Shown here piece by piece: positions 2,289 to 16,826 of a stretch of DNA of 34,655 nucleotides. Within the stretch, counting starts at the first letter, position 1; the number at the start of each line of letters is the position of its first letter. The DNA is from Chloroflexota bacterium (lineage in GTDB: Bacteria > Chloroflexota > Limnocylindria > Limnocylindrales > CSP1-4). The translations under genes were made by a program, and so were the position numbers. The notes under the pieces are model-generated. The model was given only the letters and a program-made list of their open reading frames with translations. It had not been told where the DNA came from and searched no databases. The stretch lies in the NCBI GenBank assembly GCA_027364875.1, contig DAHXON010000032.1:1-34655 (forward strand), given 5' to 3'.

Positions 2289-2314
2289 AGGCACACAAGC
2301 ACAATCGGGCTGCG

Positions 2315-2337
2315 CGGCGGGCCACCACGGCCCGCCG
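2315..2337 (+). promoter_or_regulatory. hairpin between lemA and htpX
   Basis: A perfect 9-bp inverted repeat (CGGCGGGCC / GGCCCGCCG) closes a 5-base loop in the lemA-htpX gap. There is no T-run after it. It may attenuate transcription or stabilise the upstream mRNA. Function is inferred only from position. Confidence 0.4.
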
Positions 2338-2365
2338 GCGGAGCGATGCCTGAGGGCACCAATCG

Positions 2366-3358
2366 GTGACTACAACCTTCTATTCCGAGGAGTCGGCGAA
2401 TCGCCGCAACTCGTTCCTGCTCGCTCTCATCGTCGTCGCCTTCCTGGGCGTCTTCGGCTACATCGTCGGCTATGTAGTCGGCTACGGCAGCGGAGGCGGC
2501 GACCCGGTTCTGTGGGGCATCGGCGCGCTGGCCATTGCCATCGCGATCGGGATCCTGAGTGCGCTGGGTTCCTACTACGGCGGCGATCAGCTGGTCCTCG
2601 CCAGCTCGCACGCGCAGGAAGTGAACCCTACGCAGGCGCCGGGGCTGTTCAACGTGGTCCAGGAGATGTCCATCGCCGCGGGCGTGCCGATGCCCAAGGT
2701 CTACATCATCGACGACCCCTCGCCGAACGCCTTCGCCACCGGCCGCGATCCGCAGCACTCGTCCATCGCGGTGACCACGGGGCTTCTCCAGAAGATGACC
2801 CGCGAGGAACTACAGGGCGTGATCGGCCACGAGATGTCGCACGTCCGCAACTACGACATCCGCTTCACCCTGATAGTGGGGGTCCTGGTCGGCAGCATCG
2901 CGTTGCTCGCCCAGCTGTTCCTCCGCTACACGTTCTGGTTCGGGGGCGGAAGGTCCCGCGACAACGAACGGGGTGGGGGAGGAGGCTTCGCCGCCATCCT
3001 CCTCGTGATCGGGATCATCCTCGCCATCCTCGCCCCGATCTTCTCGGCCCTCGTCCAGATGGCCGTGAGCCGGCAGCGCGAGTACCTGGCGGACGCTTCG
3101 TCGGTCCAGCTGACGCGCAACCCGCACGGTCTCGAGAGCGCCCTGGCGAAGCTCGCCATGGACGGCGAGTCGCTGCACTCGGCCAACGGGGCAACGCAGC
3201 ATCTTTACATCGTCAATCCGCTCAAGAAGCTGGGCGGCGGTTCGGCCCTCTTCTCGACGCATCCGCCGATCGTCGATCGGATCAATCGACTTCGCGAGCT
3301 GACCGGCGATTCGCCGCTGCCGCCCAATGCCATCTCGCAATTGAGCGGCCTGGAATAG
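2366..3358 (+). CDS. htpX: HtpX-type membrane zinc metalloprotease (M48)
   Basis: HtpX is a membrane-embedded zinc endopeptidase that degrades damaged membrane proteins. The 330-residue sequence has two N-terminal membrane segments (about 20-40 and 50-68), the zinc motif HEMSH at H155-E156-H159, and the third ligand E239 in REYLADASSV. Two more hydrophobic segments lie between them (about 170-190 and 210-235), as in the family. The C-terminal FSTHPPIVDRINRL is also typical. The start is GTG at 2366. A glycine-rich cytoplasmic loop (GGGRSRDNERGGGGGF) is a common feature of HtpX homologues. It follows lemA closely and precedes the tRNA cluster. Confidence 0.95.
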   Translation: MTTTFYSEESANRRNSFLLALIVVAFLGVFGYIVGYVVGYGSGGGDPVLWGIGALAIAIAIGILSALGSYYGGDQLVLASSHAQEVNPTQAPGLFNVVQEMSIAAGVPMPKVYIIDDPSPNAFATGRDPQHSSIAVTTGLLQKMTREELQGVIGHEMSHVRNYDIRFTLIVGVLVGSIALLAQLFLRYTFWFGGGRSRDNERGGGGGFAAILLVIGIILAILAPIFSALVQMAVSRQREYLADASSVQLTRNPHGLESALAKLAMDGESLHSANGATQHLYIVNPLKKLGGGSALFSTHPPIVDRINRLRELTGDSPLPPNAISQLSGLE

Positions 3359-3440
3359 CCGGCGAATCCTCCGTCGGAAGGCTCCGCGGGGCGCCGCATG
3401 CCGGTCTCGCGGCGGGCAGGTCGGCAGTCGTTCGCCTGCC

Positions 3441-3470
3441 TTGCAGCGTTTCGGTTCGACGTGGTACCTT
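3441..3470 (+). promoter_or_regulatory. candidate sigma70-type promoter of the tRNA cluster
   Basis: TTGCAG (3441-3446), an 18-base spacer and TACCTT (3465-3470) lie 37 bases before tRNA-Phe. The hexamers are close to the -35 and -10 consensus, and the placement fits the first gene of a tRNA operon. Prediction by eye only. Confidence 0.4.
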
Positions 3471-3506
3471 TCGACGCGCCGACGGGCAGCCAGTTCGTCT
3501 GACAGG

Positions 3507-3582
3507 GCCGAGATAGCTCAGTTGGTAGAGCACGCGACTGAAAATCGCGGTGTCGCCAGTTCGATCCTGGCTCTCGGCACCA
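3507..3582 (+). tRNA. tRNA-Phe (GAA)
   Basis: Cloverleaf folded by eye: acceptor stem GCCGAGA / TCTCGGC, anticodon stem CGCGA / TCGCG with loop CTGAAAA (anticodon GAA), a T-arm with GTTCGATCC, discriminator A and encoded CCA. First of four tandem tRNAs. Confidence 0.97.
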
Positions 3583-3604
3583 ATACGGCTGGCGTGGTTT
3601 TCGA

Positions 3605-3680
3605 GCGGAAGTGGCTCAGTTGGTAGAGCATCACCTTGCCAAGGTGAGGGTCGCGGGTTCGAGTCCCGTCTTCCGCTCCA
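3605..3680 (+). tRNA. tRNA-Gly (GCC)
   Basis: Acceptor stem GCGGAAG / CTTCCGC, anticodon stem TCACC / GGTGA with loop TTGCCAA (anticodon GCC), T-loop GGTTCGAGTCC, discriminator T and encoded CCA. It lies 22 bases after tRNA-Phe. Confidence 0.97.
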
Positions 3681-3736
3681 CTTCTTTCCTTCCATGCTGC
3701 CGACCCGGACGGCGATCCGCCGAGAGCTAGACCCTC

Positions 3737-3810
3737 TGCCCCTTCGTCTAGTGGTAGGACAGCGGACTTTGGATCCGTTAGGCGAGGTTCGAATCCTCGA
3801 GGGGCAGCCA
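3737..3810 (+). tRNA. tRNA-Gln (TTG)
   Basis: Acceptor stem TGCCCCT / AGGGGCA, anticodon stem GCGGA / TCCGT with loop CTTTGGA (anticodon TTG), T-arm with GGTTCGAATCC, discriminator G and encoded CCA. The T1-A72 first pair is typical of bacterial tRNA-Gln. Confidence 0.96.
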
Positions 3811-3921
3811 GTCCTCGCGGGGAACCCGGGCAGGGACGAGCTCGGGGTCGGACTGAGTCGACACAGCGCCGGTTCCCCGCCGGCCGGTCGAGGCGCCGCA
3901 GGCGACTCGACAGCGCGTCGA

Positions 3922-3997
3922 GGCGACGTACCCAAGTGGTTAAGGGGGAGGTCTGCAAAACCTCTATTCAGCGGTTCGAATCCGCTCGTCGCCTCCA
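3922..3997 (+). tRNA. tRNA-Cys (GCA), integration target
   Basis: Acceptor stem GGCGACG / CGTCGCC, anticodon stem GAGGT / ACCTC with loop CTGCAAA (anticodon GCA), T-arm with GGTTCGAATCC, discriminator T as expected for Cys, encoded CCA. The 3' half from the anticodon loop onward (3953-3997) is repeated exactly at 16943-16987. The tRNA is therefore the attachment site of the element to its right and has been restored intact by the insertion. Confidence 0.97.
3953..3997 (+). repeat. attL core (45 bp, 3' half of tRNA-Cys)
   Basis: Starts at the anticodon loop (CTGCAAAACC) and ends at the CCA of tRNA-Cys. The identical 45 bases recur at 16943-16987. A one-mismatch 34-base fragment recurs at 17586-17619. 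Confidence 0.95.
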
Positions 3998-4044
3998 CTT
4001 CCCCCTAGTGAATTGGCCCTGCTGGGCTGTTCTGTGCTCTGTCC

Positions 4045-4084
4045 TGGTAGCAACGTGGTAGCAACAGGCGTACACTGGCGTACA
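4045..4084 (+). promoter_or_regulatory. left arm-type recombinase sites
   Basis: Two copies of TGGTAGCAAC (4045-4054, 4056-4065) are followed by two copies of GGCGTACA (4067-4074, 4077-4084). Each pair is spaced about one helical turn (11 and 10 bp). TGGTAGCAAC recurs inside the right end at 16827, as expected for integrase arm sites. The GGCGTACA pair may instead bind an excisionase. It overlaps -10-like sequences (TACACT, TACATA), so binding here could also control the integrase promoter. Role is inferred from layout. Confidence 0.6.
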
Positions 4085-4154
4085 TAGCGCGACGGCCCCC
4101 GGGGCGAACCGGAGGCCGTCAAGGAAGCGCTCCTGCAAGAGAGGACCGCTACCA

Positions 4155-5369
4155 ATGGGAGAGCTTACCGCCAAGACAGAGCGAAGGCGATCGCCTGGCG
4201 AGGGGTCCGTCTACGAAACCAAGGACAGACGTGGCTGGCGCGGAGCCGTCACCTGGACCGAACCCGACGGGCGCCGGCGCCGGCGCGTCGTTTCGGGCGA
4301 AACCTCCAAGATCGTCCGCGACAAGCTGGATGATCTTCGCCGGGAGCTGAGGCTCGGCACGATCGCCCCGGCAGGCAAGGCCGTCACAGTAGGGGAGTAC
4401 CTCACCGCCTGGATCGATCGCGACCGGACGCGTGTCCGCCCGTCGACGTGGAAGGGCCGCGAGACTCACGTTCGCTGCTACCTCATCCCGACGCTTGGGC
4501 GGCTGTCGCTGGCCCGGCTTGGGTCTCCGGACGTTGAGCGGGCGATTGCCGGGTGGATCGCCTCGGGCCGCCCCGTGACCGGAGACGAGCGCAAGCGTGG
4601 TCGCCAGGGTCATGCACCCGTATCCCCACTGACGGCACGACACATCCGCGCTACCTTGCGCCGGGCACTCGCCGATGCGGTGCGAGACGGGCTAGTGGGT
4701 CGCAACGCGGCGGGGGACGCCCGCCCGCCCTACGTGGCACACCGTCCCGTTGCCTACCTCGACGCGCCACTCGTTCGTCGCCTGCTCGAGGCCACGGTTG
4801 CGGACGACTACGGCAACCTCTACGCCGTGGCAGTTTCGACCGGTCTGCGGCTCGGAGAGATGCTCGGTCTGGCCTGGCCGGACGTTGACCTAGTCGCTGG
4901 CACCCTGACCGTGCGCCGGTCGCTGGCTATGGCCCGCGATGGCGGATGGGCGCTGGCGCAGCCCAAGTCAACGCGGTCGCGACGCACGATCCCGCTCCCC
5001 GGGCTTGCCCGTGATGCACTCGTGCGAGAGAGTGATCGTCAGGCCGACGCCCGGGCAGCTGCCGGGAGTGCCTCCTGGCAGGATCGGGATGGCCTCGTGT
5101 TCACGGACAGCGTGGGCCGGCCGCTTCGCCCGGAAGGAGTCTCCGCCGCGTTTCAGCGAGCCCGCGAAGCTGCTGGCCTGCCGCACGTCCCGTTCCATGC
5201 CCTCCGCCATAGCGCCGCGACGCTCATGCTGGCCGAAGGCGTGCCGTTGGCCGTTATCAGCGAATGGCTCGGCCACTCGGGGATCGCGATCACGGCGAGC
5301 AGCTATGCCGCGATCGTGCCAGCGCTCCGCCGCGATGCCGCGGACGCGATGGACCGGGCGCTCCGATGA
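4155..5369 (+). CDS. tyrosine recombinase / phage-type integrase
   Basis: This 404-residue integrase has the usual three parts. An N-terminal arm-binding (AP2-like) region spans about residues 14-75 (GSVYETKDRRGWRG). A SAM-like core-binding domain spans about 80-165 (TVGEYLTAWIDRDR). The C-terminal catalytic domain shows STGLRLGEMLGLAW (first Arg), HALRHSAATLML (HxxR) and WLGHSGI followed by the likely nucleophile Tyr in SSYAAI. It lies 157 bases inside attL and would integrate and excise the element at tRNA-Cys using the arm repeats at 4045 and 16827. Its stop overlaps the next start (ATGA). Confidence 0.97.
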   Translation: MGELTAKTERRRSPGEGSVYETKDRRGWRGAVTWTEPDGRRRRRVVSGETSKIVRDKLDDLRRELRLGTIAPAGKAVTVGEYLTAWIDRDRTRVRPSTWKGRETHVRCYLIPTLGRLSLARLGSPDVERAIAGWIASGRPVTGDERKRGRQGHAPVSPLTARHIRATLRRALADAVRDGLVGRNAAGDARPPYVAHRPVAYLDAPLVRRLLEATVADDYGNLYAVAVSTGLRLGEMLGLAWPDVDLVAGTLTVRRSLAMARDGGWALAQPKSTRSRRTIPLPGLARDALVRESDRQADARAAAGSASWQDRDGLVFTDSVGRPLRPEGVSAAFQRAREAAGLPHVPFHALRHSAATLMLAEGVPLAVISEWLGHSGIAITASSYAAIVPALRRDAADAMDRALR

Positions 5370-5848
5370 CGGCCCCGACGGTCTTTCGCTCCGTGTCCTG
5401 GTACGGCGATGACGATGGACCCTGGGACTTCGTGGCGGAGCCGCCGAAGAGCCTCAGGCCGGACCCGATCACGGGTCGCTCATCCTACCGAGTCACAGGA
5501 CGCTCGCGGTCGCGTCCGCCCGACCTTCATTTCGAACATGTCACCGTTGCCGACACTTTCACAGGAGCCGCAATAACGCTAACCACGGCCCCCGACCACG
5601 ACGGTCCGGCGTACATCGACCAGTTGTGGCGCGATGCCCGTCTCCTAGCCGGCGTGGCGCAGCGGCTCGGGCGGCCGCAGGGAACCACCGTCACGGAAGC
5701 CGAACTACGGCGGGTCATTGCCCTGCTGCAGAAGGCCGGGCGCAGAGTCACGCTCCAGACGATCGCGGACATGTCCGGCAGGTTCGATCGTGACAACCTC
5801 CGGTACTTCCTGAGGGTCAACCGCAGGCATCTGGCTGACTACCTCTAG
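5366..5848 (+). CDS. hypothetical element protein with HTH-like C-terminus
   Basis: A 160-residue protein whose ATG overlaps the integrase stop (ATGA), so it is translationally coupled to it. The N-terminal half has no recognisable domain and is rich in D, P, R and S. The C-terminal part (about 95-160: TEAELRRVIALLQKAGRRVT, then QTIADMSGRFDRDNLRYFLR) reads as a helical, winged-helix or HTH-like region of the type 'test each locus, one condition per helix'. A DNA-binding regulator is a reasonable guess, not shown. A longer upstream reading frame exists, but the overlap start is preferred. Confidence 0.7.
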   Translation: MTAPTVFRSVSWYGDDDGPWDFVAEPPKSLRPDPITGRSSYRVTGRSRSRPPDLHFEHVTVADTFTGAAITLTTAPDHDGPAYIDQLWRDARLLAGVAQRLGRPQGTTVTEAELRRVIALLQKAGRRVTLQTIADMSGRFDRDNLRYFLRVNRRHLADYL

Positions 5849-5900
5849 GTCGGACCTTTTCGCGCATATATCGCGCAGCCTGGTCCCGCATCGTCCGGGC

Positions 5901-6077
5901 ATGGACGAAACGATCAAGGTTCCGCTCGACGCCAAGACCCTGGAACGGCTGCGCGAGCGGGCAATCACGGACCGGCGAGCCACTTCTGACGAAGCCGCCG
6001 TCATCTTGACCCGCGTCCTCACGCCGCGACTACCTCGCCGGGCTGGACCACAGACACCGGGCGAACCCCAGCGATGA
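5901..6077 (+). CDS. small ribbon-helix-helix-like protein
   Basis: A 58-residue ORF that opens MDETIKVPLDAKTLERL and continues with RERAITDRRATSDEAAVILT. The pattern is a short beta strand with alternating residues (IKVPL) followed by two helices, as in Arc/MetJ-type ribbon-helix-helix proteins. These act as small dimeric DNA-binding repressors or antitoxin domains. Its TGA overlaps the ATG of the next gene (ATGA at 6074), which supports it as a real gene in the cascade. Candidate target: the AT-rich GCGC-ATATATC-GCGC sequence near 5873-5887, just upstream of this gene. That link is speculation. Confidence 0.68.
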   Translation: MDETIKVPLDAKTLERLRERAITDRRATSDEAAVILTRVLTPRLPRRAGPQTPGEPQR

Positions 6078-6328
6078 GCGACCGTCTTGACCTCGCGCTC
6101 CGCGAACTGGCCGAGGCTTTGCGTGAGGAACTCCGGTCGGAGAGCCGCAGTGCGCCCGCGCCAGACCGGCTCCTGGGTGTCGATGAGGCGGCTGGCCTCT
6201 TGGGGATCGGCCGAAGCGCGCTGTACGACGAGATCCGTTCGGGCCGCCTCAAGACGATCAAGGTCGGCCGGCGCCGCCTCGTCTCAGACACGGCGCTGCG
6301 TGAGTTCATCGCAGGCATGGCCCGATGA
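6074..6328 (+). CDS. excisionase-like / MerR-type helix-turn-helix protein
   Basis: An 84-residue protein. Residues 1-33 form an amphipathic helix (LALRELAEALREEL) and residues 34-80 carry the HTH_17 pattern LLGVDEAAGLLGIGRSALYD followed by IRSGRLKTIKVGRRRLVS. This fold is used by phage excisionases and by small DNA-binding regulators. In a recombinase-bearing element it is a good candidate for the directionality factor that would act on the arm repeats near attL. It overlaps both neighbours by 4 bases (ATGA), so it is made from the same message. Confidence 0.82.
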   Translation: MSDRLDLALRELAEALREELRSESRSAPAPDRLLGVDEAAGLLGIGRSALYDEIRSGRLKTIKVGRRRLVSDTALREFIAGMAR

Positions 6329-7212
6329 GCCGCTCTGACGGCTTCGACCACGCCGACATCGACGTGGGTCTGATGGCAGACCCGAAGGTCGTGGGCCTGG
6401 CCAGGTGCCTGCGTGATCCAGTGAAGATCGGCGCGGCAGTCACGCTCTACCAGGCCGCGGTCCTCGCGTCTTGGAAGGCGGGAGCCCGGCTCACGGCCGA
6501 AGAGGCGTTGCCAGCCTGGTGGCTCGACCTGCCCGGTCAACTGATCGACGCCCTGGTAGTTGCCAAGCTCCTGGATGCCGACCACCGCATCCCCGAGCAC
6601 GCCTTCGAGAGTTGGTTCGGCCCTGCTCGGGACCGGCGGGAGCACTATCGCGAACTCGGTGCTCGTGGCGGCAAGGCTAAGGCCAGCAACGCCGCAGGCT
6701 CTAGCGACGGCTCTGCCGACGGCTCTAGCGACGGCTCTGCCGACGGCTCTAGCGACGGCTCTACCGAGCGCTACACCGACGGCTCTACCGGCGGCTCTAG
6801 CTATACCAGTACCGACATACCCGACAGACCCGACAGGGAAGGTACCTCGCGCGAGCGCGCGAGGGACGACGATTGGCCGACCGAGCACTGTTGGGCATCC
6901 TTCCGGAAAGCCTGGGAGGCACGCGGCTTTCGGGCACCGCCAACCTCGAAACAGCTGGCAACACTCGGCGAAATCGTGGAACGCCGGCCTGCGTCGGCCG
7001 CTGGTTGGGTCGTTTCGGCGCCACCTGGTGCCAAGGCGGCCGAGGTCGTCGGCTGGGTCTTCAAGCAGTGCCGCGAAGCCGACCGGGAGGCGCAGGCCAC
7101 GGCGAAGGCCGAGGACGACGAGCAGGCTGCGCGTGCTGACGCAGCTGCGTCACGAGACGGCCAGAAGGGCCCCGAAAAGGCCGCAGATCTATTGAGGGTG
7201 GTGGGGCAATGA
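6325..7212 (+). CDS. replication-initiator / replisome-organiser-like phage protein
   Basis: A 295-residue protein in three parts. The N-terminal part (about 8-115: HADIDVGLMADPKVVGLAR) resembles the winged-helix start of phage replisome organisers. The central linker (about 125-160) is a Ser-Asp-Gly repeat encoded by 12-bp DNA repeats. The C-terminal helical part (about 183-250: CWASFRKAWEARGFRAPPTS) is reminiscent of DnaD-like or helicase-loader modules. Position after the regulators and before the phage-type genes fits a replication role. The acidic, alanine-rich tail (250-295) is likely disordered. No helicase or primase is encoded, so host replication proteins would be needed. Assignment rests on layout and weak similarity. 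Confidence 0.6.
   Translation: MSRSDGFDHADIDVGLMADPKVVGLARCLRDPVKIGAAVTLYQAAVLASWKAGARLTAEEALPAWWLDLPGQLIDALVVAKLLDADHRIPEHAFESWFGPARDRREHYRELGARGGKAKASNAAGSSDGSADGSSDGSADGSSDGSTERYTDGSTGGSSYTSTDIPDRPDREGTSRERARDDDWPTEHCWASFRKAWEARGFRAPPTSKQLATLGEIVERRPASAAGWVVSAPPGAKAAEVVGWVFKQCREADREAQATAKAEDDEQAARADAAASRDGQKGPEKAADLLRVVGQ
6697..6801 (+). repeat. 12-bp tandem repeat encoding a Ser-Asp-Gly linker
   Basis: GGCTCTAGCGAC and GGCTCTGCCGAC alternate from 6697 to 6756 (five 12-bp units, so a 24-bp higher repeat), then decay through three or four variant units. The repeat stays in frame and encodes SDGSADGSSDGS-type sequence. It is likely a flexible linker that can change length by slippage. Confidence 0.85.
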
Positions 7213-7376
7213 AGCCAGCCATTCACGCCATCGCCGTCGGCGCGAAAGGCCCGCGGCACGTCGCAGATCCAGCCTGCTGGTGCCACCCGAAGGCGTGCCT
7301 GCGGACGCTGGGTGACTTGACGTTGATCTGGCTCCACTCAGCCCCGACGCCGCCCGAACAGAAGGCGAAGCCATGA
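7209..7376 (+). CDS. small hypothetical element protein with CxC motif
   Basis: A 55-residue ORF that overlaps both neighbours by 4 bases (ATGA at 7209 and at 7373). It contains DPACWCHPKACL, with three Cys and one His in twelve residues, which could bind a metal. No family is recognised. The coupling on both sides is the main reason to call it a gene. Confidence 0.55.
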   Translation: MKPAIHAIAVGAKGPRHVADPACWCHPKACLRTLGDLTLIWLHSAPTPPEQKAKP

Positions 7377-7561
7377 GCGGCAAGCCGGCGATTCGCCATG
7401 TCGTCTCAACCTGGCGCCCGGCAGGCGGCGTGGACCACCGCGCCAGCCTCGGCTGCGCCTGCCACCCCAGCCTGTTCCACGACTTGTCGAACCCCAAGGT
7501 TCTGGTGCTCGTTCACCGAGACGAACCCCCGAAGGAGGAGGGACCCAAGTGCTCGAAGTAG
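7373..7561 (+). CDS. small hypothetical element protein
   Basis: A 62-residue protein (MSGKPAIRHVVSTWRPAGG...) with a central GCACHPSLFH segment that recalls the Cys/His cluster of the preceding small protein. The two may be related metal-binding products. It starts in the stop of its upstream neighbour and its last 13 bases contain the GTG start of the next gene. Function unknown. Confidence 0.58.
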   Translation: MSGKPAIRHVVSTWRPAGGVDHRASLGCACHPSLFHDLSNPKVLVLVHRDEPPKEEGPKCSK

Positions 7562-8532
7562 TGCCCGCAGCTGGCCCAGCTGTGTCTGCTGGGCGGTCTT
7601 TCGTGATGACGGCCGGTCAGACGTTCGAGGAGATCGCGCTTCGGCCCGGCGGCTGGTCCGAGATCCGGGACCGCGGCACGCCCGCCATGATCCGACGCGC
7701 CGAACCCGCCGATCCCGCGCTGCGCGTTTTCGTCGAGCGGGTGGCTAGGGAAGCCAGCATCGAGATGGGCCTGAACGGCAGGCTAGGCGTCGCCTTCTTT
7801 GTTTGCACCACGCCCACTGAGACCACGTCTGTGGGCGACGGCGGCCTTGGGCTGCGGTTCAGGCTTGATGGATTCTCGACCACCGCGACGGAGCCGTCGT
7901 CGATCTGGATCAGGCTCGACGGCCGCCGTGCGAACGTCGCGGAACTGCGCCACTTGGTCAGACACGAGATGGGACACCTCGGGGTCGAACTCGTCGGGCT
8001 TCCTTCTGGCCCCGTCGCCGAATCGGCCGCCGACCTTTTCGCGGACGGCGGCATGCCGGCGCTTGCCGCGGGTCTCGGCTTGGGTGCCGAGCGCCAGCAG
8101 CTGCCCGCGCCGCAGCCCGCACCTGCGCTAGGCGCCGGCGACCCGACGGGCACGATCATCATCGACGGCACCTCCGACATGTTCAAGATCGCGGCCACCG
8201 GGACGATCACCGTCAACGGGGTCGACGGCAGCGGCGCTGGTGGCGGAACCGCCACTGCCACCGTCACGATCACGACGGGCTTCACGTATCGGCCGGCGCA
8301 CCTGATCTACGCGCAGTTCGCGGGTGGCCTGGCGGGCCTGACGCCATCCGTGCAATGGGACGTCTCGAATGGCTTCCCCCAAAGCGGCCACATCACGGAT
8401 GCGTACAACGGGTGGGTAGAAGCTGTCATCGGGAACGCGACCAAGGTTACTTGCCGGTGGGCAACACGCCTGAACCGGTCCGGGTCTTCCGTTGACTTCC
8501 GGTACTACGTGCTCGTGGAGGCGGCGATCTAA
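7549..8532 (+). CDS. HExxH metallopeptidase-like protein fused to a tail-fibre-like C-terminal domain
   Basis: A 327-residue protein. The N-terminal domain (about 1-175) contains LVRHEMGHLGVEL, a zinc HExxH motif at H139-E140-H143. E158 in VAESAADLF is a possible third ligand, so a gluzincin-like fold is plausible. A proline/alanine linker (about 178-198) joins it to a beta-rich C-terminal domain (200-327) with alternating ATATVTITTGFTYRPAHLIY and a FRYYVLVEA end, a pattern seen at the C-terminus of phage tail tip and fibre proteins. The GTG start at 7549 is chosen because AGGAGG lies about ten bases before it. A virion-associated peptidase or adhesin are both possible. The protein may be a structural or cell-contact factor of the element or its helper. 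Confidence 0.6.
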   Translation: MLEVVPAAGPAVSAGRSFVMTAGQTFEEIALRPGGWSEIRDRGTPAMIRRAEPADPALRVFVERVAREASIEMGLNGRLGVAFFVCTTPTETTSVGDGGLGLRFRLDGFSTTATEPSSIWIRLDGRRANVAELRHLVRHEMGHLGVELVGLPSGPVAESAADLFADGGMPALAAGLGLGAERQQLPAPQPAPALGAGDPTGTIIIDGTSDMFKIAATGTITVNGVDGSGAGGGTATATVTITTGFTYRPAHLIYAQFAGGLAGLTPSVQWDVSNGFPQSGHITDAYNGWVEAVIGNATKVTCRWATRLNRSGSSVDFRYYVLVEAAI

Positions 8533-9087
8533 ATGGGCATGTTGCTGGCCTATACCCGCGACGGCACGATCGTCGCCACGCTGGATTCCTTGGTCATCCG
8601 CGACCCCCAGGGCAACGTGGTGGGCTTGGCCGACTTTGCCGCGCACGAAGCAGCCGGCAGGCCGTTGACCGACCTCTGGACGGTCAACTCAGGCGACCCT
8701 ACCAACCCAATCAAGGGCAGTAAGCACTGGCCGGAATGGCTGGGCGCCACTGCCCACGGCTACCGCGTCGAGCTTGACGGTCCGGCGGGGCAGAAGCACA
8801 TCGCGGCGCTGGTGCACCGCACGAGCGGCTACCGCCGTGGGCGGGCCGTGATCGACGCGGCCATAGCCGATGCGAACGCGCGGGGCGTTCACGACCTACG
8901 CCACCTCCTGGGCGACCCCGGGCACCCACTTGCCGTCGATGCCGAGGGTCGCACTTCACCCGCGGTGACGCCCGAACCTGCGCCGCCCACGATCCGACAG
9001 GCGGCCAGCACCATGACCGGTTTCGGACCACCCCCTGCGGCTGCATGCCCGCAGCGGCGTCGGCGGGCAGGGGGGAAGGTGTCGTGA
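8533..9087 (+). CDS. hypothetical phage-type protein
   Basis: A 184-residue protein whose ATG directly follows the stop of the peptidase/fibre-like gene. The first 125 residues look folded (MLLAYTRDGTIVATLDSLVI, then HWPEWLGATAHGYRVELDGP), while the last 55 are proline- and arginine-rich. The tight linkage suggests a partner of the upstream structural-type protein. No family is recognised. Its stop overlaps the next ATG (TGATG at 9085-9089). Confidence 0.65.
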   Translation: MGMLLAYTRDGTIVATLDSLVIRDPQGNVVGLADFAAHEAAGRPLTDLWTVNSGDPTNPIKGSKHWPEWLGATAHGYRVELDGPAGQKHIAALVHRTSGYRRGRAVIDAAIADANARGVHDLRHLLGDPGHPLAVDAEGRTSPAVTPEPAPPTIRQAASTMTGFGPPPAAACPQRRRRAGGKVS

Positions 9088-9506
9088 TGGACGACGACCG
9101 CTGCGTCTGTGGACCCTGCCAGGAACTGGACGTGGCTTTGACCCTCCTGGCCATCGCCGAAGGGCGCGCCCGTGCCCCCCGTCGCCGCGTGAGACGCGCC
9201 GCAACCCAAGTAGATGTCGTGCACCAGTTGGACCTGTCCAGCGTGCCACCTGACCAGACGCACGCAATGCATGCCGCCCTGGGGAGGGTGGGGGCCCAGG
9301 CCCGCTGGGGTGCCCCGGCATCGCAGTCGATAGTCGAGGCAGAGGCGTCGGCGTCGAAGGTCGAACAAATGAAAGTCGATCAAGGCACGGCCCCGTTTAC
9401 TAACACCCCCGGGGAGGGAGCCTCACGGAGCCCAGAAGGCGCTCGTCCACCCCGGCACTCACGCCTCGGAGGTGCCGCGAGGAAAACCGAACCGGGTGAG
9501 ACATGA
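9087..9506 (+). CDS. hypothetical element protein with N-terminal CxCxxC
   Basis: A 139-residue protein, start chosen at the ATG that shares one base with the upstream stop. The N-terminus MDDDRCVCGPCQELDVAL has three Cys in six residues, possibly a metal site. A helical middle follows and the last 40 residues are low-complexity. No family is recognised. It directly precedes, and overlaps by four bases, the small terminase gene. Confidence 0.55.
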   Translation: MDDDRCVCGPCQELDVALTLLAIAEGRARAPRRRVRRAATQVDVVHQLDLSSVPPDQTHAMHAALGRVGAQARWGAPASQSIVEAEASASKVEQMKVDQGTAPFTNTPGEGASRSPEGARPPRHSRLGGAARKTEPGET

Positions 9507-9841
9507 CCGCCAGGAGCCGGACGCCACGCCCGCCAGCCCACCTGAAAGAGGCCGGCCAGGTGTTATGGCGGGCCGTCACGCGCAGTTACGAGCTTGAAGA
9601 CCACGACCTGGCGATCCTCGCGGCTGCGTGCGAGGCGGCTGACCGCGCCGCAGCCGCCCGAGTCGAGATTGATCGCGACGGCATCACGATCGAAGGTCGC
9701 TACGGCAGACGCGCCAATCCGGCCATCCAAATCGAGCGAGATTCGCGCCTTTCGATGCTGAAAGCGCTACGCGAACTGGGCCTAAACGCGGAACCGGCGG
9801 CTGAACCCCGCCCGCTGCCGGCACAGCGAGGCAGGAGGTAG
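9503..9841 (+). CDS. phage terminase small subunit, P27-like family
   Basis: A 112-residue protein. The sequence opens PPAHLKEAGQVLWRAVTRSY, continues with LEDHDLAILAAACEAADRA, then a GITIEGRYGRRANPAI segment and ends ALRELGLNAEPA. This is the layout of P27-type small terminase subunits: N-terminal helical DNA-binding part, conserved G-x-x-NP, and a C-terminal ELGL-P motif. Small terminases recognise the packaging site of a phage genome. No large subunit follows, so the protein could redirect a helper phage's packaging machinery, as in some satellites, or be a leftover of a decayed prophage. Confidence 0.82.
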   Translation: MTARSRTPRPPAHLKEAGQVLWRAVTRSYELEDHDLAILAAACEAADRAAAARVEIDRDGITIEGRYGRRANPAIQIERDSRLSMLKALRELGLNAEPAAEPRPLPAQRGRR

Positions 9842-9843
9842 AC

Positions 9844-10074
9844 ATGGTTGCTAGACCCCGCCAGCCGCACGTCGCGGTGGCACGAACCGCGGACCATGAC
9901 CTGGCCGAGCGCGCGGGCTTCTTGGCGAATCGGTTGGACACCCTCGAACGGCTCGCCCAGATCGGCATGGGCAAGCCGTTGACCGCCGAGCGCGTCGCCT
10001 GGCTCCGGACCGCCTACAGGGTGCCGGCCGATTACCAGTTGCCAGCGCCCGTCCGACTCCGGGTGCAGCCGTGA
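9844..10074 (+). CDS. small hypothetical element protein
   Basis: A 76-residue protein with a helical middle (LAERAGFLANRLDTLERLAQ) and the end AYRVPADYQLPAPVRLRVQP. A Shine-Dalgarno AGGAGG overlaps the end of the terminase gene just before this ATG. No family is recognised. Confidence 0.55.
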   Translation: MVARPRQPHVAVARTADHDLAERAGFLANRLDTLERLAQIGMGKPLTAERVAWLRTAYRVPADYQLPAPVRLRVQP

Positions 10075-10298
10075 AGACGCCAGCGTCGGGTGGTGCAACC
10101 GCTCGCCTCGCCGCGGGCGCCCCACGCCTAGAGGACTGCGCCACTCGCGCCTCAAACACCGACAGCGTTGCCCCTAGGCGGGCAGCTCACCATCCGGCCG
10201 GCTGCCGGCGTCCAGGAAGGCCGCGTGGGCAGTGTGCGCGGCTTGGCCGACCCGGCAGCCGCCGGTCCACAAGGAGGGAACCATGGACCCCGAACTAG
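10071..10298 (+). CDS. doubtful small ORF in the 10075-10282 gap
   Basis: A GTG codon at 10071 overlaps the upstream stop (GTGA) and opens 75 codons, giving an arginine/proline-rich product with no fold-like pattern. It would overlap the next gene, which has a strong ribosome site, by 16 bases. The gap of about 208 bases otherwise shows nothing I can support. Reported only because the overlap start matches the habit of this cluster. Confidence 0.2.
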   Translation: MKTPASGGATARLAAGAPRLEDCATRASNTDSVAPRRAAHHPAGCRRPGRPRGQCARLGRPGSRRSTRREPWTPN

Positions 10299-10624
10299 AC
10301 CGCCAGCGCAGCGAGATGGAGGCCTTGCTGGGCACGTTGCAGCGCACGGCCGTCGAACTGACCTGCGCCCGTACCGCAGACGACCGGTTTGCCGCTGCCC
10401 AGCAGTGGCAAACCGCTCTGGCTCAAGTGGGCGCACTGTGGCGGAGACGCGGCTGGCAACCGCCCGTACCGTCCGGCAAGTTGGTGCACCCACTTCTGAT
10501 CCTGCGGCTCGTCGGCGCGATGATGGCCGGCCACAGTCTCAGTCCGGGCGCTTGGGATGCGCTCGAGAACGCGGTTGCGAGCGCTCTGCCGGCCCGCTTG
10601 GCGGGCCGCGCGGAGACCCGATGA
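10283..10624 (+). CDS. small hypothetical element protein
   Basis: A 113-residue, mostly helical protein (MDPELDRQRSEMEALLGTLQ, then HPLLILRLVGAMMAGHSLSP). AAGGAGG at 10271-10277 lies five bases before the ATG, which fixes the start. It overlaps the next gene by 4 bases (ATGA). No family recognised. Confidence 0.6.
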   Translation: MDPELDRQRSEMEALLGTLQRTAVELTCARTADDRFAAAQQWQTALAQVGALWRRRGWQPPVPSGKLVHPLLILRLVGAMMAGHSLSPGAWDALENAVASALPARLAGRAETR

Positions 10625-11154
10625 ACACCGTTCTGGTTGCGGTTCACGAACTGGGCCACTGGTTGGCTCAGATCGCGTGCGGCTGGCCGATCGATCTCGT
10701 GACGATCGTGCCCAGCGCCAGCGCTGCGGGCTGCGTTTTCCCGACATATCCACCGCCCGCGCATGTGACCAGGCTGGACCACCTCGTCATCCTCGAAGCC
10801 GGCGACGTGGCGCAGCGCCTCCTGACACCGGCAATGGCTGCACTCGCTGACAGTGCACGGGCAACCGATGCCACGGTCACGGCGTTGGCCAGCCTGCCCC
10901 CAGCGGACCGCCAATTCATCTCGGAGGTGATGGCATACCGCGCCCATGACGCCGACGAGGAGAAGGCAGCAAAGCTCGCAGCTGGCGACACCGATCTGCT
11001 TCGCCAGGCACGTATCCGGGCCTGGGAAGTTGTCGACGTGGGCTGGCCGCAATTGCTCATCGCCGTGCCGGTGCTGCTGGCACGGCGCACCCTGACCGGC
11101 GCTCAGCTCGAAGCGGCCCTCCGGGGCCAAGCAGGAGGACTCGACCATGCCTAG
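10621..11154 (+). CDS. stand-alone FtsH-peptidase-like (M41-type) metallopeptidase domain
   Basis: A 177-residue protein that begins almost at its catalytic motif: VAVHELGHWLAQ gives H9-E10-H13. The next segment, CGWPIDLVTIVPSASAAGCV, matches the G-x-P-V-x-x-V-T-I-x-P pattern that follows the zinc motif in the FtsH peptidase domain. The later LVILEAGDVAQRLL and acidic helical region also fit that layout. There is no AAA ATPase or membrane part, so it is an isolated peptidase-like domain. ATG 10621 is chosen because it overlaps the upstream stop. A role in processing an element, phage or host protein is possible. The third zinc ligand is not certain. Confidence 0.6.
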   Translation: MNTVLVAVHELGHWLAQIACGWPIDLVTIVPSASAAGCVFPTYPPPAHVTRLDHLVILEAGDVAQRLLTPAMAALADSARATDATVTALASLPPADRQFISEVMAYRAHDADEEKAAKLAAGDTDLLRQARIRAWEVVDVGWPQLLIAVPVLLARRTLTGAQLEAALRGQAGGLDHA

Positions 11155-11740
11155 CATCCCCTTCACCCACACAGGCCCGGACCCCGAGAAGCTGTACGCC
11201 GTCGTGGAGGGCTTCTCGGCCGATCTGCCCAGTTTCCCCGACTTCAGTCCGCGCATCGGCACGCGACTGCCGGGCGATCACCCGGCGGTTGTCGCGCTGT
11301 TCGAGGCCGGCTACTTCGCTGAGGTGGGCGGCAAGGACTACATCGTCGTGGGCGCGTTCTGCGCTGCGATGCCTGATGGCCACAACTTCGCGCCGATGCT
11401 CGGCACCCGTGTTCCTGCCGGTCACCCGTTGGCCGCGAAGCTGGCGAAGGCTGGCCTCCTGGTTCCTGCCGATGCCAGCGACGAACAGATTAGGGCAGCC
11501 AAGGCCGCCGTCATGGCGCCGGCTTTGGACCGCGTGCCAACAGCTGACCCGACTGCCCCGCGCGTTCTGGACGTACCACCGGAGCGCCTGGTTGTCTCGA
11601 CGTGCAACCTGTTTACACCTAGCGGCTGGCTGCCGGCTGGCAGCATCGCGGACAGCGCCAGCGAGTTCGTGAAGGCGAACCGCGAGCACTTCGTGCCGGT
11701 TCCGCGGCCGGTCGAGCAGGAAGAGGTGGAGGCCAACTAA
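11147..11740 (+). CDS. hypothetical element protein with internal duplication
   Basis: A 197-residue protein with AGGAGG at 11133-11138 before the ATG. Two parts resemble each other: RIGTRLPGDHPAVVALFEAG (about 36-55) and MLGTRVPAGHPLAAKLAKAG (about 84-103), suggesting a duplicated small domain. The C-terminal part (120-197) has no recognisable family. It is the last gene of the overlapping run and is followed by a structured intergenic stretch. Confidence 0.65.
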   Translation: MPSIPFTHTGPDPEKLYAVVEGFSADLPSFPDFSPRIGTRLPGDHPAVVALFEAGYFAEVGGKDYIVVGAFCAAMPDGHNFAPMLGTRVPAGHPLAAKLAKAGLLVPADASDEQIRAAKAAVMAPALDRVPTADPTAPRVLDVPPERLVVSTCNLFTPSGWLPAGSIADSASEFVKANREHFVPVPRPVEQEEVEAN

Positions 11741-11825
11741 TCGCACGGCCTCCCGGTCTCCCGCCGTTGGGCTCGTCTCGATTCGCGGTGTAGCTGGGGC
11801 GGGCCGACGGCGGGGTGGCAACGAC

Positions 11826-11863
11826 CAGTGTTGGAGTCTCCCGCGAGGGAGGGCGCAGCACTG
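11826..11863 (+). promoter_or_regulatory. two-stem RNA hairpin before the methyltransferase gene
   Basis: An outer 8-bp stem (CAGTGTTG / CAGCACTG, one G-U pair) encloses an inner 5-bp stem CTCCC / GGGAG with a GCGA (GNRA) tetraloop. No T-run follows. It may end the upstream operon or control the downstream methyltransferase. Structure folded by eye; function inferred. Confidence 0.4.
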
Positions 11864-11904
11864 ATCACGGCGTGAACGAGAGCCCGTCATAGTACTGACG
11901 AGCA

Positions 11905-13587
11905 GTGTCCGATCTGTGTTGCCAGGTCGATGCTCTGTTGCCCATGGTCACCAACGGCGGCAACAGGCTCTTCTACGGCGACAACCTGAAGGTTCTGCGT
12001 CGGTATGTTCGAGACGAGACAGTTGATCTCGTCTACCTCGACCCTCCGTTCAAGTCAAATGCCGATTACAACGTGCTCTTTGCCCAACATGGACAGAAGG
12101 CTGCCGCCCAGATCAAGGCGTTTGGCGACACATGGGAGTGGAACGAAGAGTCGGCCGCTTCCTACGAGGAGACCGTCGAGCAGGGTGGCGACGTGGCCAA
12201 CGCCCTCCGGGCCTTCCGGACCCTGCTCGGGACCTCCGACATGCTGGCCTACCTCTCGATGATGGCCCCCCGCCTCGTCGAACTGCAACGGGTCCTCAAG
12301 CCAACGGGCTCGCTCTACCTCCACTGCGACGCGACAGCGAGCCACTACCTAAAACTGCTCCTTGATGCCGCCTTCGGTCCGAGGAACTACCGCAACGAGA
12401 TAATCTGGCATTACGCCAAGTTCCAGATGCGAGCGATGCGGAAGTACGTCAAGAACACGGACCGGCTGCTCTTCTACTGCAAGGACGAGTCATCCGGGTA
12501 CACGTTCAACCCGCAGACGGTCAAGCTAGAGAAGCCGAAACGGTACCTGCGTAAGCATTGGAGCGCCGAACTAGGCCGGATCGTCAACTTCAAAGACGAG
12601 TATGGCCATACGGTTATGGACGAGTACACCGACCAGCGGGTCGATGACGTTTGGGACATTCCCTACATCGCCGCTCCATCCAAGGAGCGACTGGGCTACC
12701 CAACACAGAAGCCCGTGACGCTCCTCAAGCGTGTCATCGAAGCCTCGTCCAAACCGGGTGACCTTGTGCTCGACCCGTTCTGCGGCTGCGGCACAACGAT
12801 CGATGCCGCGCAGGCGCTCGGTCGCCATTGGGTAGGGATCGATATCACTCACCTTGCCACGGGGCTGATCAAGCACCGCCTGATTGGCGGCTATGGCCCA
12901 GAGATTGCTGCGACATTCATGGTCACAGGAGAGCCAGAAACGGCCGAGGATGCAGCCGAACTGGCTCGCGATGATCCTTGGCAGTTCCAGGCGTGGGCCC
13001 TGGGACTGGTAGGTGCAAGGCCGTTGGGCGAAACGAAGAAGGGCGGCGACAAGGGGATTGATGGCCGGCTCTTCTTCCACGAGGTATCCGGCGGCCCCTC
13101 GAAGGAAATCGTGATATCGGTAAAGTCCGGCCATCTGGTACCTGCGTTTGTGCGGGATCTCCGGGGAGTCATTGATCGAGACGAGGCGGCCCTGGGTGTG
13201 TTGATCTCGTTTGAGAAGCCGGGGCGCGGCATCCAGGCCGAGGCTGCATCCGCTGGCTTCTACGACTCGGCGCAAGGGAGGTTCCCGCGGATACAGCTCC
13301 GGACCATTGCAGAGCTGTTGAGCGGCCATCGGATTGCCTACCCGGTTACGGTCGAGCCCCCGCAAACGCTATGGCCGCTGGAGATGATCCCAACTGGCCC
13401 CAGGCAGGAGCACAAACGTGGGCGCCAGGCATCCAAGGTGGCGGTCCAACTTCCGCTCGTGCCCACTGAACACCAGGCCGTACGGCAGATCCGGGACGAC
13501 TACATGCGACGCGTGGCCGAGCCAACCGCGGCCGAGGGCAGCCCGGCGCACAAGCCTCAAGCGCCGCCGGTCTCTGAGGACCGCTAG
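11905..13587 (+). CDS. one-chain DNA methyltransferase and PD-(D/E)XK nuclease-like fusion
   Basis: A 560-residue protein. The methyltransferase part has the amino-methyltransferase motif DLVYLDPPF (41-49) before the SAM-binding motif LDPFCGCGTTIDAA (from D290) and HWVGIDI. That order is typical of beta-class N6-adenine or N4-cytosine enzymes. The C-terminal part (about 355-480) carries GGDKGIDGRLFF (D386) and EIVISVKSG (S405-V-K407), the Mrr-like nuclease pattern, though the middle position is Ser instead of Glu or Gln. Such proteins may act as self-contained restriction-modification enzymes or as lone methyltransferases. GTG 11905 is used; ATG 11944 is an alternative, and neither has a strong ribosome site. 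It is separated from the phage-type genes by 164 bases and is probable cargo. Confidence 0.85.
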   Translation: MSDLCCQVDALLPMVTNGGNRLFYGDNLKVLRRYVRDETVDLVYLDPPFKSNADYNVLFAQHGQKAAAQIKAFGDTWEWNEESAASYEETVEQGGDVANALRAFRTLLGTSDMLAYLSMMAPRLVELQRVLKPTGSLYLHCDATASHYLKLLLDAAFGPRNYRNEIIWHYAKFQMRAMRKYVKNTDRLLFYCKDESSGYTFNPQTVKLEKPKRYLRKHWSAELGRIVNFKDEYGHTVMDEYTDQRVDDVWDIPYIAAPSKERLGYPTQKPVTLLKRVIEASSKPGDLVLDPFCGCGTTIDAAQALGRHWVGIDITHLATGLIKHRLIGGYGPEIAATFMVTGEPETAEDAAELARDDPWQFQAWALGLVGARPLGETKKGGDKGIDGRLFFHEVSGGPSKEIVISVKSGHLVPAFVRDLRGVIDRDEAALGVLISFEKPGRGIQAEAASAGFYDSAQGRFPRIQLRTIAELLSGHRIAYPVTVEPPQTLWPLEMIPTGPRQEHKRGRQASKVAVQLPLVPTEHQAVRQIRDDYMRRVAEPTAAEGSPAHKPQAPPVSEDR

Positions 13588-13836
13588 CCCCACACAGTAG
13601 CTCCCTATCCCCACGAAGCCCGGCTCGCGGCAACGCCACCAGATGTGCCCGGGCGTGGAGCCGGGGGTGCATCAGGCGACCCGAACGGCATCGCCAGGAC
13701 TGGCCGCAGGTCGCGGGATCGTCGGCGCTGAGCAGAGCGGGGCAAGACGCAGGCTAGCGACAACGCCCTATCTGGCGCCTATCGACGAGATACGATTGCA
13801 GTTCAGCTCCCAGGCGAAGGTCCAGTTGGGAGGGGG

Positions 13837-15228
13837 ATGGCGATGGCGACCCACAGGGGCCACGAAGCGACGGTCTGGACGCGGCTATCCGGCGTGTCCC
13901 TGACCCCGGCAGGTTCTACGCCCGCGCAGTCCGCCACACCCGCAGGCTCTACACCGAGCATCCCGACGCCAAAGATATTCCGGAAATGGCGCTGGCGTTT
14001 GCTGAATGTTCTGGCCGTCCTGGCCTGGGTCTACATCTTCGCCAAACTGTTCGTGACCGACGTGGATCGCGAGTTCGTCTCGGCCGTGGCCCCGAGCGCA
14101 CTGCCGATGCTCGACTACCGAATCGTGTTCTTCCTCGTCCTCATAGGCGTGGTCCTGTGGCGGCATTGGGTCTTGGAAGCCCTCTACGTGGTCGGCTTTC
14201 CGCTAGTCGTGCTCTTCGCCTGGATACCTTGGCGCGTGATCCGGTACTTCTGGCGGCATCGCAGCTGGGGCGTGTTTCTGGGGATGCTGCAAGTTGGTGC
14301 GACCTTGCTGCGCGACGTTCGCTACAACATCATCACGAAGTCGCTGGCCCTGGCCGCCGGGATCTTGATCGTTACGACCGGTCCATCTCCGTTGTTGTGG
14401 GTCTGTGCCGCCTACATCACGTGGCTAATGGTCTGGTCGTTGATCCGACGCGTCCGCGGGACCTTTACTCGCCCGACCTTCGTGGCGCTCCAGGAGAAGT
14501 TCATCACCTCACTGATGAACTTTGGCTGGCTCCAGCGGGCGCAGTTGCTCAAAGAGGAACTCAAGGCAGCCGACCTGGAGAAGTACGATGAGACCCAGGC
14601 ACAGTCTGTAACCTCCGCGATCTCTATCGGAATTGGCCTCAACAAGGCGCTTTACTTGTATGCCTATCAGCTCGGCCGTTATAGGCGCCGCTACTCTCCG
14701 AGCGTGGTGTTCAACATCATCACGTTCGTTTGGGTCTTCTGCGCTTCCCTGGCTGGCCTTACGCTCCTAAATGTTGCCCTCTTGAAGCTGGCTCCCGACC
14801 AGTACGCGACCGCCCATCCGTGGGGTCCAGTGTCGCCGATGGTGTACTCGCTCAGCACCTTCACGCTTGGCAGTGCCGGTGGCATCCAGCCGATTGGACA
14901 GTTGGCCTACCTGCTGCAGTTTGCAGGCGCTATCACCGGAACGTTGATCCTCGCCACGCTAGGGGTGAGCGTCGTGCTCGGCTATCTGCGCGAGCGCGAC
15001 GACTCGGCTCTCAATCAGCTGATCCAAGACCTGAAAGAACAGGCGCGACTTCAAGAAGAGCGGTTCAAGGCTGAGTATGCGGTGACGATCGACGAGGCAT
15101 ATTCGCGGCTCCGGGATCTACGGGCTAATGCCGTGGGCATCCTGGCCTTCCTCATTCAAGCCCTCCCAACCAGTCCGCCTGATGAGGCGGAAGGGGACAG
15201 CACCGGGGCAGAGCTGACGCCGCCGTAG
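13837..15228 (+). CDS. multi-span membrane protein with ion-channel-like pore loop
   Basis: A 463-residue protein. Residues 1-50 are low-complexity (Thr/Pro/Ser). About six to eight membrane segments follow, at about 55-73, 91-111, 115-135, 165-200 (two), 287-312 and 355-380. Between the last two segments lies YSLSTFTLGSAGGIQP (337-352), which sits where the P-loop and selectivity filter sit in two-TM K+-type channels (S-x-x-T-x-T-x-G-x-G-x-I-x-P). The filter is altered (TLGSAGG instead of TxGYG). The C-terminus (about 385-430) is a charged helix (NQLIQDLKEQARLQEER), maybe a coiled coil. GGGAGGGGG immediately precedes the ATG. It may be an ion channel or a membrane-disrupting effector; neither is shown. 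Confidence 0.65.
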   Translation: MAMATHRGHEATVWTRLSGVSLTPAGSTPAQSATPAGSTPSIPTPKIFRKWRWRLLNVLAVLAWVYIFAKLFVTDVDREFVSAVAPSALPMLDYRIVFFLVLIGVVLWRHWVLEALYVVGFPLVVLFAWIPWRVIRYFWRHRSWGVFLGMLQVGATLLRDVRYNIITKSLALAAGILIVTTGPSPLLWVCAAYITWLMVWSLIRRVRGTFTRPTFVALQEKFITSLMNFGWLQRAQLLKEELKAADLEKYDETQAQSVTSAISIGIGLNKALYLYAYQLGRYRRRYSPSVVFNIITFVWVFCASLAGLTLLNVALLKLAPDQYATAHPWGPVSPMVYSLSTFTLGSAGGIQPIGQLAYLLQFAGAITGTLILATLGVSVVLGYLRERDDSALNQLIQDLKEQARLQEERFKAEYAVTIDEAYSRLRDLRANAVGILAFLIQALPTSPPDEAEGDSTGAELTPP

Positions 15229-15658
15229 CGAGTGTGCATCGTCAACAATGGTCGAATGACGGTATTGCGGCCGGGCATCTCCTCACGAAGAGAAACGCCC
15301 CGGCTGCCTGAGGGGGAGGACAGCCGGGGCGCCGGTAGATGCGGGTGGTGCGGATGCAGTGAGGGTGTTCCGAACTGATTCTCGGGCCCATGTCGGGGGC
15401 TGTTGTCGCGGCGTTGGTGCCGGCCCTGCAACGACCACCCGTCGGCCCGCGGCAAGCCCGCAGGCCGCCTACAGCCTGGTACAACCGGGCCCTCGGGGGC
15501 AGCGGAGACCAAAAGGGGAGATGCAGTCAACGGTCCTCGCTAATGACCCCCAGAATGGGTAGTCGTCCGGCTGGCACGCGGAACCTATGCTGCGCCCGGC
15601 CACAGTGGCCCTCGTCGCTGGACTATGATCGTGTGGAAGCCAACAGGGGAGGCGAGAC
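15229..15658 (+). other. 430-base gap before the protease pair
   Basis: No gene can be supported here. It holds a perfect hairpin (15296-15331) and TATGAT (15624-15629), a good -10 box 30 bases before the small coupled gene but without a clear -35. A promoter for the protease pair is therefore possible. Confidence 0.4.
15296..15331 (+). terminator. strong hairpin, possible terminator of the membrane-protein gene
   Basis: A perfect 11-bp inverted repeat (CGCCCCGGCTG / CAGCCGGGGCG) closes a 14-base purine-rich loop 67 bases after the stop codon. No T-run follows, so a Rho-independent terminator is only one option. Confidence 0.45.
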
Positions 15659-15844
15659 ATGGCGCATCGGCACAACAAAGACGTGGAGGACCGGCAGGCG
15701 GAGCAGGCCCGACTCGTCGAGTTGGCCCGCAAGGAGCCCGGAGTCGAAGAGGCCTTGGCGGCGTACCGGCGGCTCCAAGGGCAGGTCCCGAGTGTCGCCA
15801 TCTCCGGCTTTGTGGGTCGATACGCGACCGGCACGAACCGCTGA
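15659..15844 (+). CDS. small charged protein coupled to the ClpP-class protease
   Basis: A 61-residue protein (MAHRHNKDVEDRQAEQARLV...) with a highly charged helix in residues 5-42 and a less polar end (VPSVAISGFVGRY). GGGGAGG precedes the ATG. Its TGA overlaps the ATG of the protease gene (TGATG), so the two are made together in linked amounts. It could be an adaptor, inhibitor or antitoxin-like partner. No family is recognised. Confidence 0.65.
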   Translation: MAHRHNKDVEDRQAEQARLVELARKEPGVEEALAAYRRLQGQVPSVAISGFVGRYATGTNR

Positions 15845-16785: not shown

Positions 16786-16826
16786 GCGCTCGGAGAGACG
16801 AAGCTGGTCTCCGCTCGGGGCGAGCC

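Follow-up and report, generated by a model that had tools for sequence, protein, structure and literature searches.

The window analysed here is a stretch of 34,655 nucleotides that makes up one entire contig of a 3.82-Mb draft genome of a Chloroflexota bacterium (assembly 90% complete), and it carries a 12,990-bp element integrated in a gene for tRNA-Cys. ARAGORN identified four tRNA genes, the last of which is tRNA-Cys (gca) at 3922-3997 on the plus strand, to which all coordinates refer. The 3' part of this gene (45 bp, 3953-3997) forms the core of the left attachment site (attL) and is repeated at 16943-16987 (attR) without a single mismatch, and the length of the element therefore is 12,990 bp. 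As a control for the att repeat, dinucleotide-shuffled sequences yielded no match to the last 25 bases of tRNA-Cys. A tyrosine integrase of 404 aa (4155-5369; PF00589 4.7e-24, PF14659 2.5e-6, phrog_1 8.9e-64) starts 158 bp downstream of the tRNA gene. Two GTAGCAAC repeats at 4047-4065 are candidate arm sites of this integrase, and a further GTAGCAAC copy is located at 16829, near the right end of the element. Directly abutting attR is a 632-bp stretch (16988-17619) that ends in a third att copy (17575-17619), which matches the end of tRNA-Cys less completely. The right end of this stretch shows 74% identity over 177 bp to the right end of the element (E 2.5e-27) and its left end is weakly similar to the left end; it is the remnant of a related element that used this tRNA as well, with an internal deletion and without an integrase. 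The integrase next to attL, the matching attR and the empty sites in relatives described below define a discrete, site-specific integrative element.

All genes of the element are encoded on the plus strand, in the order integrase, an overlapping gene, a ribbon-helix-helix (RHH) gene, a helix-turn-helix (HTH) gene of the HTH_17 type, a gene for a 295-aa protein, small open reading frames (ORFs), a pair encoding 327- and 184-aa proteins, the gene for a phage terminase small subunit (TerS), a 76-aa gene, three uncharacterized genes and cargo. A preliminary description, made from the sequence letters, had delimited a satellite-like gene set at 6325-11740; this span lies inside the element but covers only its middle, as the element extends from tRNA-Cys (3953) to 16987. 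The TerS at the centre of that description (9503-9841, 112 aa, intact) does belong to the P27 family: it matches PF05119 (Terminase_4; E 2.6e-11, 44.2 bits, cut-off 24.7), phrog_83 “terminase small subunit” (1.6e-12) and TIGR01558 sm_term_P27 (1.2e-10; 41.4 bits, just below the cut-off of 45.6). The AlphaFold2 model of TerS has a pLDDT of 89.1, and a comparison of its fold with the TerS of HK97 (6z6e) was not significant (E 2.4-2.8, TM-score 0.36-0.48). The surrounding genes are intact, short, of one orientation and mostly coupled via overlaps of 1-4 bases, as had been described, with two exceptions: a 139-aa frame at 9087-9506 is open, yet was passed over by the codon-based caller and is doubtful, and the same caller found no convincing gene at 10075-10282.

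Two further proteins complete the core of the element. The HTH_17 protein (6074-6328; PF12728 1.2e-10; phrog_66) resembles excisionases and AlpA regulators. The 295-aa protein (6325-7212) has no family match in Pfam or PHROGs, and its distant homologues are found beside a DnaC-like helicase loader and SSB (L175) and a RusA-like gene (L174), neighbours that were named by eye (here and in the following, L numbers denote loci and G numbers the genomes compared). As these homologues lie among phage-type replication genes, the protein is probably a replisome organiser or replication initiator, a role assigned from gene context; its AlphaFold2 model is poor (pLDDT 59.6) and was unusable. At about 6691-6810, in-frame 12-bp tandem repeats encode a DGSS/DGSA-rich linker in this protein.

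The claim that no large terminase (TerL), portal, capsid, tape measure or lysis gene is present in the 13 kb holds. In Pfam and PHROGs searches, the element proteins, including the small ones among which a hidden TerL or capsid had been considered, gave no match to any of these families, nor did they reveal head, tail or lysis modules of a prophage. Six-frame searches of the complete draft genome with TerL_ATPase (PF03354), Phage_portal (PF04860) and Phage_capsid (PF05065) were likewise empty, whereas the controls were positive. Any helper is therefore absent from the assembly, of a type missed by these models, or an infecting phage. Genes for an autonomous particle are thus absent from the element, as is characteristic of a satellite.

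The 3' part of tRNA-Cys is present in 17 of the 21 genomes of the genus. At five loci (L143, L144, L153, L154 and L157) the tRNA gene is not followed by an integrase and the flanking host genes are the same, and we regard them as empty sites. Most of them have a homologue of the protein encoded at 2366-3358 on one side and, opposite, matches to positions 21446-22724 of the window, where the genes correspond by name, assigned by eye, to rpsF, ssb and rpsR. In G014, no tRNA lies near the orthologue of the gene on the right flank; the empty sites were hence established via the tRNA itself. G019, G010 and G006 (L141, L148, L149 and L155) carry a related integrase and an HTH_17 gene at the same tRNA-Cys with the same att core, and in G018 the integrase at this site is broken. 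Empty, occupied and broken sites among congeners indicate that tRNA-Cys is a hot spot. The 12.99-kb element itself was not detected beside tRNA-Cys in the genus genomes, with sites empty or holding different elements, and the same gene order next to this tRNA, which had been proposed as a check, was not found.

One of the occupants, L149 on a contig of G010 that ends in an att copy, encodes a pSAM2-type RepSA (PF20199 4.8e-131), which Pfam showed at this locus only, and G019 has a gene similar to it. Such pSAM2-like elements, of the actinomycete integrative and conjugative element (AICE) type, have a related integrase, an HTH_17 excisionase and the att core in common with the element in the window, where TerS and a replication gene of phage type are found in place of RepSA. 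As related integrases sit with RepSA elements, the integration module is common to elements of another kind. The element could accordingly be an AICE-like integrative plasmid or an integrative and mobilizable element that gained TerS by chance and moves by conjugation, in line with the observation that the closest integrases at tRNA-Cys belong to elements whose HTH_17 gene is divergent, L149 with RepSA among them. We consider this unlikely, since general family scans of the element proteins detected neither a relaxase nor FtsK/TraB, RepSA or any conjugation family and since several independent elements likewise combine TerS with replication genes of phage type.

Within the class, Terminase_4 was detected in 12 of 177 genomes and TerL_ATPase in seven, and the loci are of two kinds: prophages with TerS directly before TerL (L026, L027, L028, L030, L033, L034 and L039) and small elements that lack TerL. 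To the second kind belong L040 (integrase, an overlapping 159-aa gene, RHH, HTH_17, Prim-Pol/DUF3987 primase and TerS), L041 (integrase, Prim-Pol/D5 primase and TerS) and L038 (serine recombinase, replisome-like protein, TerS and a DarTG-like pair), and L006 (integrase, TerS and prohead protease), where the contig ends. The ends of L040, L041 and L038 revealed no att repeats of at least 20 bp. The window TerS is nearest to those of L038 (1.6e-21) and L006 (1.7e-19), ahead of prophage TerS (1.1e-7), the 295-aa protein has a homologue in L038 (3.6e-23), and L040 encodes a close homologue of the HTH_17 protein (2.4e-25) and an RHH-sized gene at the equivalent place. In part, the gene order of the element is thus also seen in small elements without TerL from further genera of this class, and the suggested conserved order was found in this partial form, though not at the tRNA-Cys of congeners.

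These comparisons also bear on the possibility that the element is a decayed prophage, a temperate phage that lost its structural genes and left neutral remains. Phage genes are represented by TerS and the gene for the replisome-organiser-like protein, the ClpP-like protease near the right end of the element is found in phage genomes as well, and the stretches 9087-9506 and 10075-10282 look non-coding. Nevertheless, the main frames are intact and coupled and both att cores are perfect. Moreover, the frames of TerS homologues with 40-50% identity are intact in elements from several phyla that lack TerL, and other parts of the element recur, too. Complete prophages of the class have TerS from other, C-terminally longer branches, and instead of complete prophages with the same genes we found L038, L040, L041 and L006, which combine an integrase or recombinase with TerS. 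Decay thus seems a rather poor explanation, to which we attach little weight.

Two loci of G030 (L031:5690-6187 and L032:9844-10350) carry TerS without TerL near a ParB/methylase-like gene and are either satellites or remnants; this ParB/methylase-like gene also precedes TerS in the prophage contig L027.

Beyond the class, scanning viral contigs with the window TerS as a single protein returned nothing, whereas TerS alignments recovered loci from Bradyrhizobium, Mesorhizobium, Sphingomonas, Rhodobacteraceae, Acidobacteria, Mycobacterium bins and IMG/VR. Among 50,697 phage records, no match was obtained for the TerS of the window or for that of L046. In a tree built from few alignment columns, with loci labelled by profiles built in this analysis, the window TerS falls in a group of 46 sequences (support 99/98), 40 of them without an adjacent TerL and six with TerL adjoining. 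As these six show, the group is not purely satellite. TerL in the relatives was sought with P27-type seeds only, so that other TerL families could escape, and on short contigs its absence may reflect truncation. Seventeen of the 40 TerL-less members are on loci with a Phage_capsid gene, a label that includes any capsid gene on the locus, also that of a helper. Many members lie in elements with integrase and primase, typically arranged as integrase, primase, (protease), (capsid), TerS, small gene, (tape measure), (fibre). L045 and L049 from the viral collection, about 9.5 and 8.1 kb long, are complete circles according to their terminal repeats of 125 and 127 bp; they encode an integrase or recombinase, a primase, TerS and a capsid, and no TerL. 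On plasmid pMNOD03 of Methylobacterium nodulans (L165, 40 kb), a P4-type primase occurs with a satellite-type TerS and no TerL is listed nearby.

TerL-less TerS mostly end about 7 residues past the conserved domain, compared to a median of 19 for those with TerL. A satellite-type TerS, which lacks the extended C-terminal tail that most TerS of phages have, might act as a weapon only, i.e., as a decoy in a defence island that blocks helper packaging while the element itself stays unpackaged, and the defence-like cargo would suit such a role. However, in many elements TerS is coupled to genes for integration, excision and replication, which agrees better with packaging than with defence alone, and relatives were found as complete circular contigs in the viral collection, so that we regard a role as mere weapon as very improbable.

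A telling relative is found in Sphingomonas laterariae LNB2 (L047, same contig as L081), where an element that encodes TerS, a capsid, a tape measure and an integrase (7429-17664) is inserted into a prophage with a TerL and a portal of its own. The insertion splits the ClpP-like head-protease gene of the prophage, and its two parts align next to each other on the uninterrupted protease of L101 (44% and 37% identity) with the junction at a shared TGGACGTT. Judged from the gene arrangement, this is how a satellite residing in its helper would be expected to look, and satellites integrating into prophages have been reported earlier (PMC11389934). At L101 itself (578-13789), prophage TerL, portal, protease and a 321-aa capsid are directly followed by a gene resembling excisionases, another capsid gene whose start is similar to that of the first, a satellite-type TerS and a tape measure; it is a second case of such an element beside or within a likely helper.

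Taken together, we assume with a probability of roughly three in four that the element in the window is an integrated phage satellite, similar in logic to phage-inducible chromosomal islands (PICIs), whose TerS diverts the packaging motor of a helper. This assumption is based on the intact identical att cores, the neighbouring remnant and the empty sites in congeners, on a TerS recognised by three libraries in a genome in which TerL, portal and capsid were not found, and on the recurrence of its parts in independent small TerL-less elements (L040, L038, L006 and L041). It further relies on the TerS group, in which 40 of 46 members are TerL-less, many beside integrases or primases, with two complete circles and no match in phage records, and on the Sphingomonas member that interrupts the head protease of a prophage equipped with TerL and portal. 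The satellite meaning given in the preliminary description is thus probably right, whereby we infer the satellite function itself.

It seems feasible that upon infection by, or induction of, a tailed helper phage, the integrase and the HTH_17 protein, perhaps with the help of the 160-aa protein encoded downstream of the integrase, would excise the element as a circle, whose replication would be started by the replisome-organiser-like protein. The TerS of the element would mark its DNA and couple it to the large terminase of the helper, and the helper motor might then pack satellite DNA into helper particles, as some Staphylococcus aureus pathogenicity islands (SaPIs), which redirect packaging by TerS, do (PMC10690885). 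Back in a chromosome, the cargo, a methyltransferase-nuclease fusion and a ClpP-like protease, may guard the host against other phages.

With PICIs such as SaPIs the element shares the size of about 13 kb, site-specific integration, an integrase with small regulators and an own TerS in the absence of TerL, portal and capsid; the PICI hallmark set of integrase, AlpA/excisionase-type regulator, replication gene (assigned from context) and TerS is present. In contrast to PICIs, its P27-type TerS is of a separate lineage, the host belongs to a different phylum, the genes are co-oriented, and a Stl-like repressor and a SaPI-type capsid-resizing or Ppi gene were not recognised. Capsid-forming PICIs (cf-PICIs) are also integrative satellites that carry packaging genes, but they encode TerL, portal, protease and capsid (PMC10690885), all of which are missing here. 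The model for phage-inducible chromosomal minimalist islands (PICMIs) of Vibrionaceae requires int, AlpA, a DUF3987/DUF5906 primase and Fis, and PICMI115 has no terS homologue (PMC10803314). PICMIs are alike in the integrase, the HTH_17/AlpA-type regulator, the ATGA overlap with int, the small size and defence cargo (PMC10803314), yet the window element has TerS and a different replication gene, family scans detected neither a primase nor a separate Fis gene in it, and it does not qualify as a PICMI. The TerL-less TerS elements of Alphaproteobacteria, Acidobacteria and viral contigs have the same TerS group, an integrase, phage-type replication and mostly no TerL; many of them, unlike the window element, possess Phage_capsid, and a prohead protease, a tape measure or a tail fibre is encoded by some.

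Several points speak against a satellite. In PICIs of Gram-positive bacteria, the integrase and repressor genes are divergent from a rightward replication-packaging operon, whereas all genes of the element point in one direction. The capsid gene of many relatives was lost or never present, and a known capsid-resizing or TerS-inhibitor gene went unrecognised: CpmAB, Ccm and Ppi/Rpp have no family match in the element, in which many small proteins are without a known family. The integration module is not specific for satellites, as the closest integrases at this tRNA are those of elements at least one of which encodes a pSAM2-type RepSA. Finally, a helper phage, a pac or cos site, excision, replication, transfer and a particle are all postulated.

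At slightly less than even odds, the element is a stripped member of a so far undescribed and broadly spread class of satellites, which would be defined by a short P27-type TerS lineage that is absent from sequenced phages. Such satellites would borrow TerL and portal from the helper, many would contribute a capsid, a head protease, a tape measure or a fibre themselves, and some would insert into the head genes of the presumed helper. The class would be intermediate between PICIs with TerS only and capsid-forming PICIs, and its range would include the Chloroflexi. Papers linking phage satellites with this host group or phylum were not found in the open-access literature. If the satellite interpretation is right, TerS-based packaging piracy extends to the mostly uncultured Chloroflexi, and the TerS lineage (HPA[VI]AIERD motif, short C-terminal tail, no adjoining TerL) offers a sequence handle for satellites in many phyla. 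The wider class with TerS, capsid and tape measure in the absence of TerL is a more surprising lead than the window element itself and provides a set for the study of part-borrowed heads and tails. Among L043-L050 and L070-L111, an own tape measure (about 500-790 aa) is frequent and tail fibres occur sometimes; these proteins may set the tail length of the particle or the host range.

Regarding the remaining genes, the 160-aa protein (5366-5848), with a weak HTH hint, overlaps the integrase stop with its start by ATGA; its resemblance to “iolg” of PICMIs (PMC10803314) is one of position. The small RHH-like protein (5901-6077, 58 aa) matches PF22513 below the cut-off (0.0088). Downstream of the 295-aa protein, the codon-based caller predicted a 55-aa ORF without assigned function (7209-7376) and a 62-aa ORF weakly similar to its neighbour (7373-7561). 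The 327-aa protein (7549-8532) has no Pfam or PHROGs family and contains an HExxH-type motif (HEMGH) in its N-terminal half, and its partner of 184 aa (8533-9087) gave a weak “beta flower” hint (PF21784 0.0055, below cut-off). This gene pair is also present in L008, an integrase-bearing region of a congener without a recognised TerS, where the C-terminal domain of the 327-aa protein (38%) and the 184-aa protein (53%) are conserved; scanning genome contigs with the 327-aa protein alone yielded nothing. The 76-aa gene directly after TerS (9844-10074) is the positional counterpart of the small post-TerS gene of relatives; membership in their “small2” family is unsupported, as the homology was not significant. 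It is followed by genes for a 113-aa protein (10283-10624, codon-based caller), a 177-aa protein with an HExxH-type motif (HELGH) and weak similarity to M50 (10621-11154; PF02163 6.3e-4, below cut-off) and a 197-aa protein without family, also predicted by the caller (11147-11740).

The cargo begins with an N6/N4 DNA methyltransferase (11944-13587; PF01555 1e-44; PADLOC MTase_II 4.1e-56), whose C-terminal part has an Mrr-like nuclease fold (PF04471 0.0053, below cut-off). The next cargo gene encodes a membrane-type protein of 463 aa, to which family searches assigned no family (13837-15228). In the Chloroflexi TerS element L038, the cargo at 10976-12699 is a DarT-like protein paired with a macro-domain DarG-like protein, as judged by eye. 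A 61-aa gene (15659-15844), weakly similar to a gene of the TerS element L006, is coupled to the gene for the ClpP-like serine protease of the SDH type (15844-16785; PF01972 5.9e-15; phrog_11747 1.2e-78), which shows 49% identity to gene 31 of Gordonia phage BeeGee, adjoining a minor tail gene.

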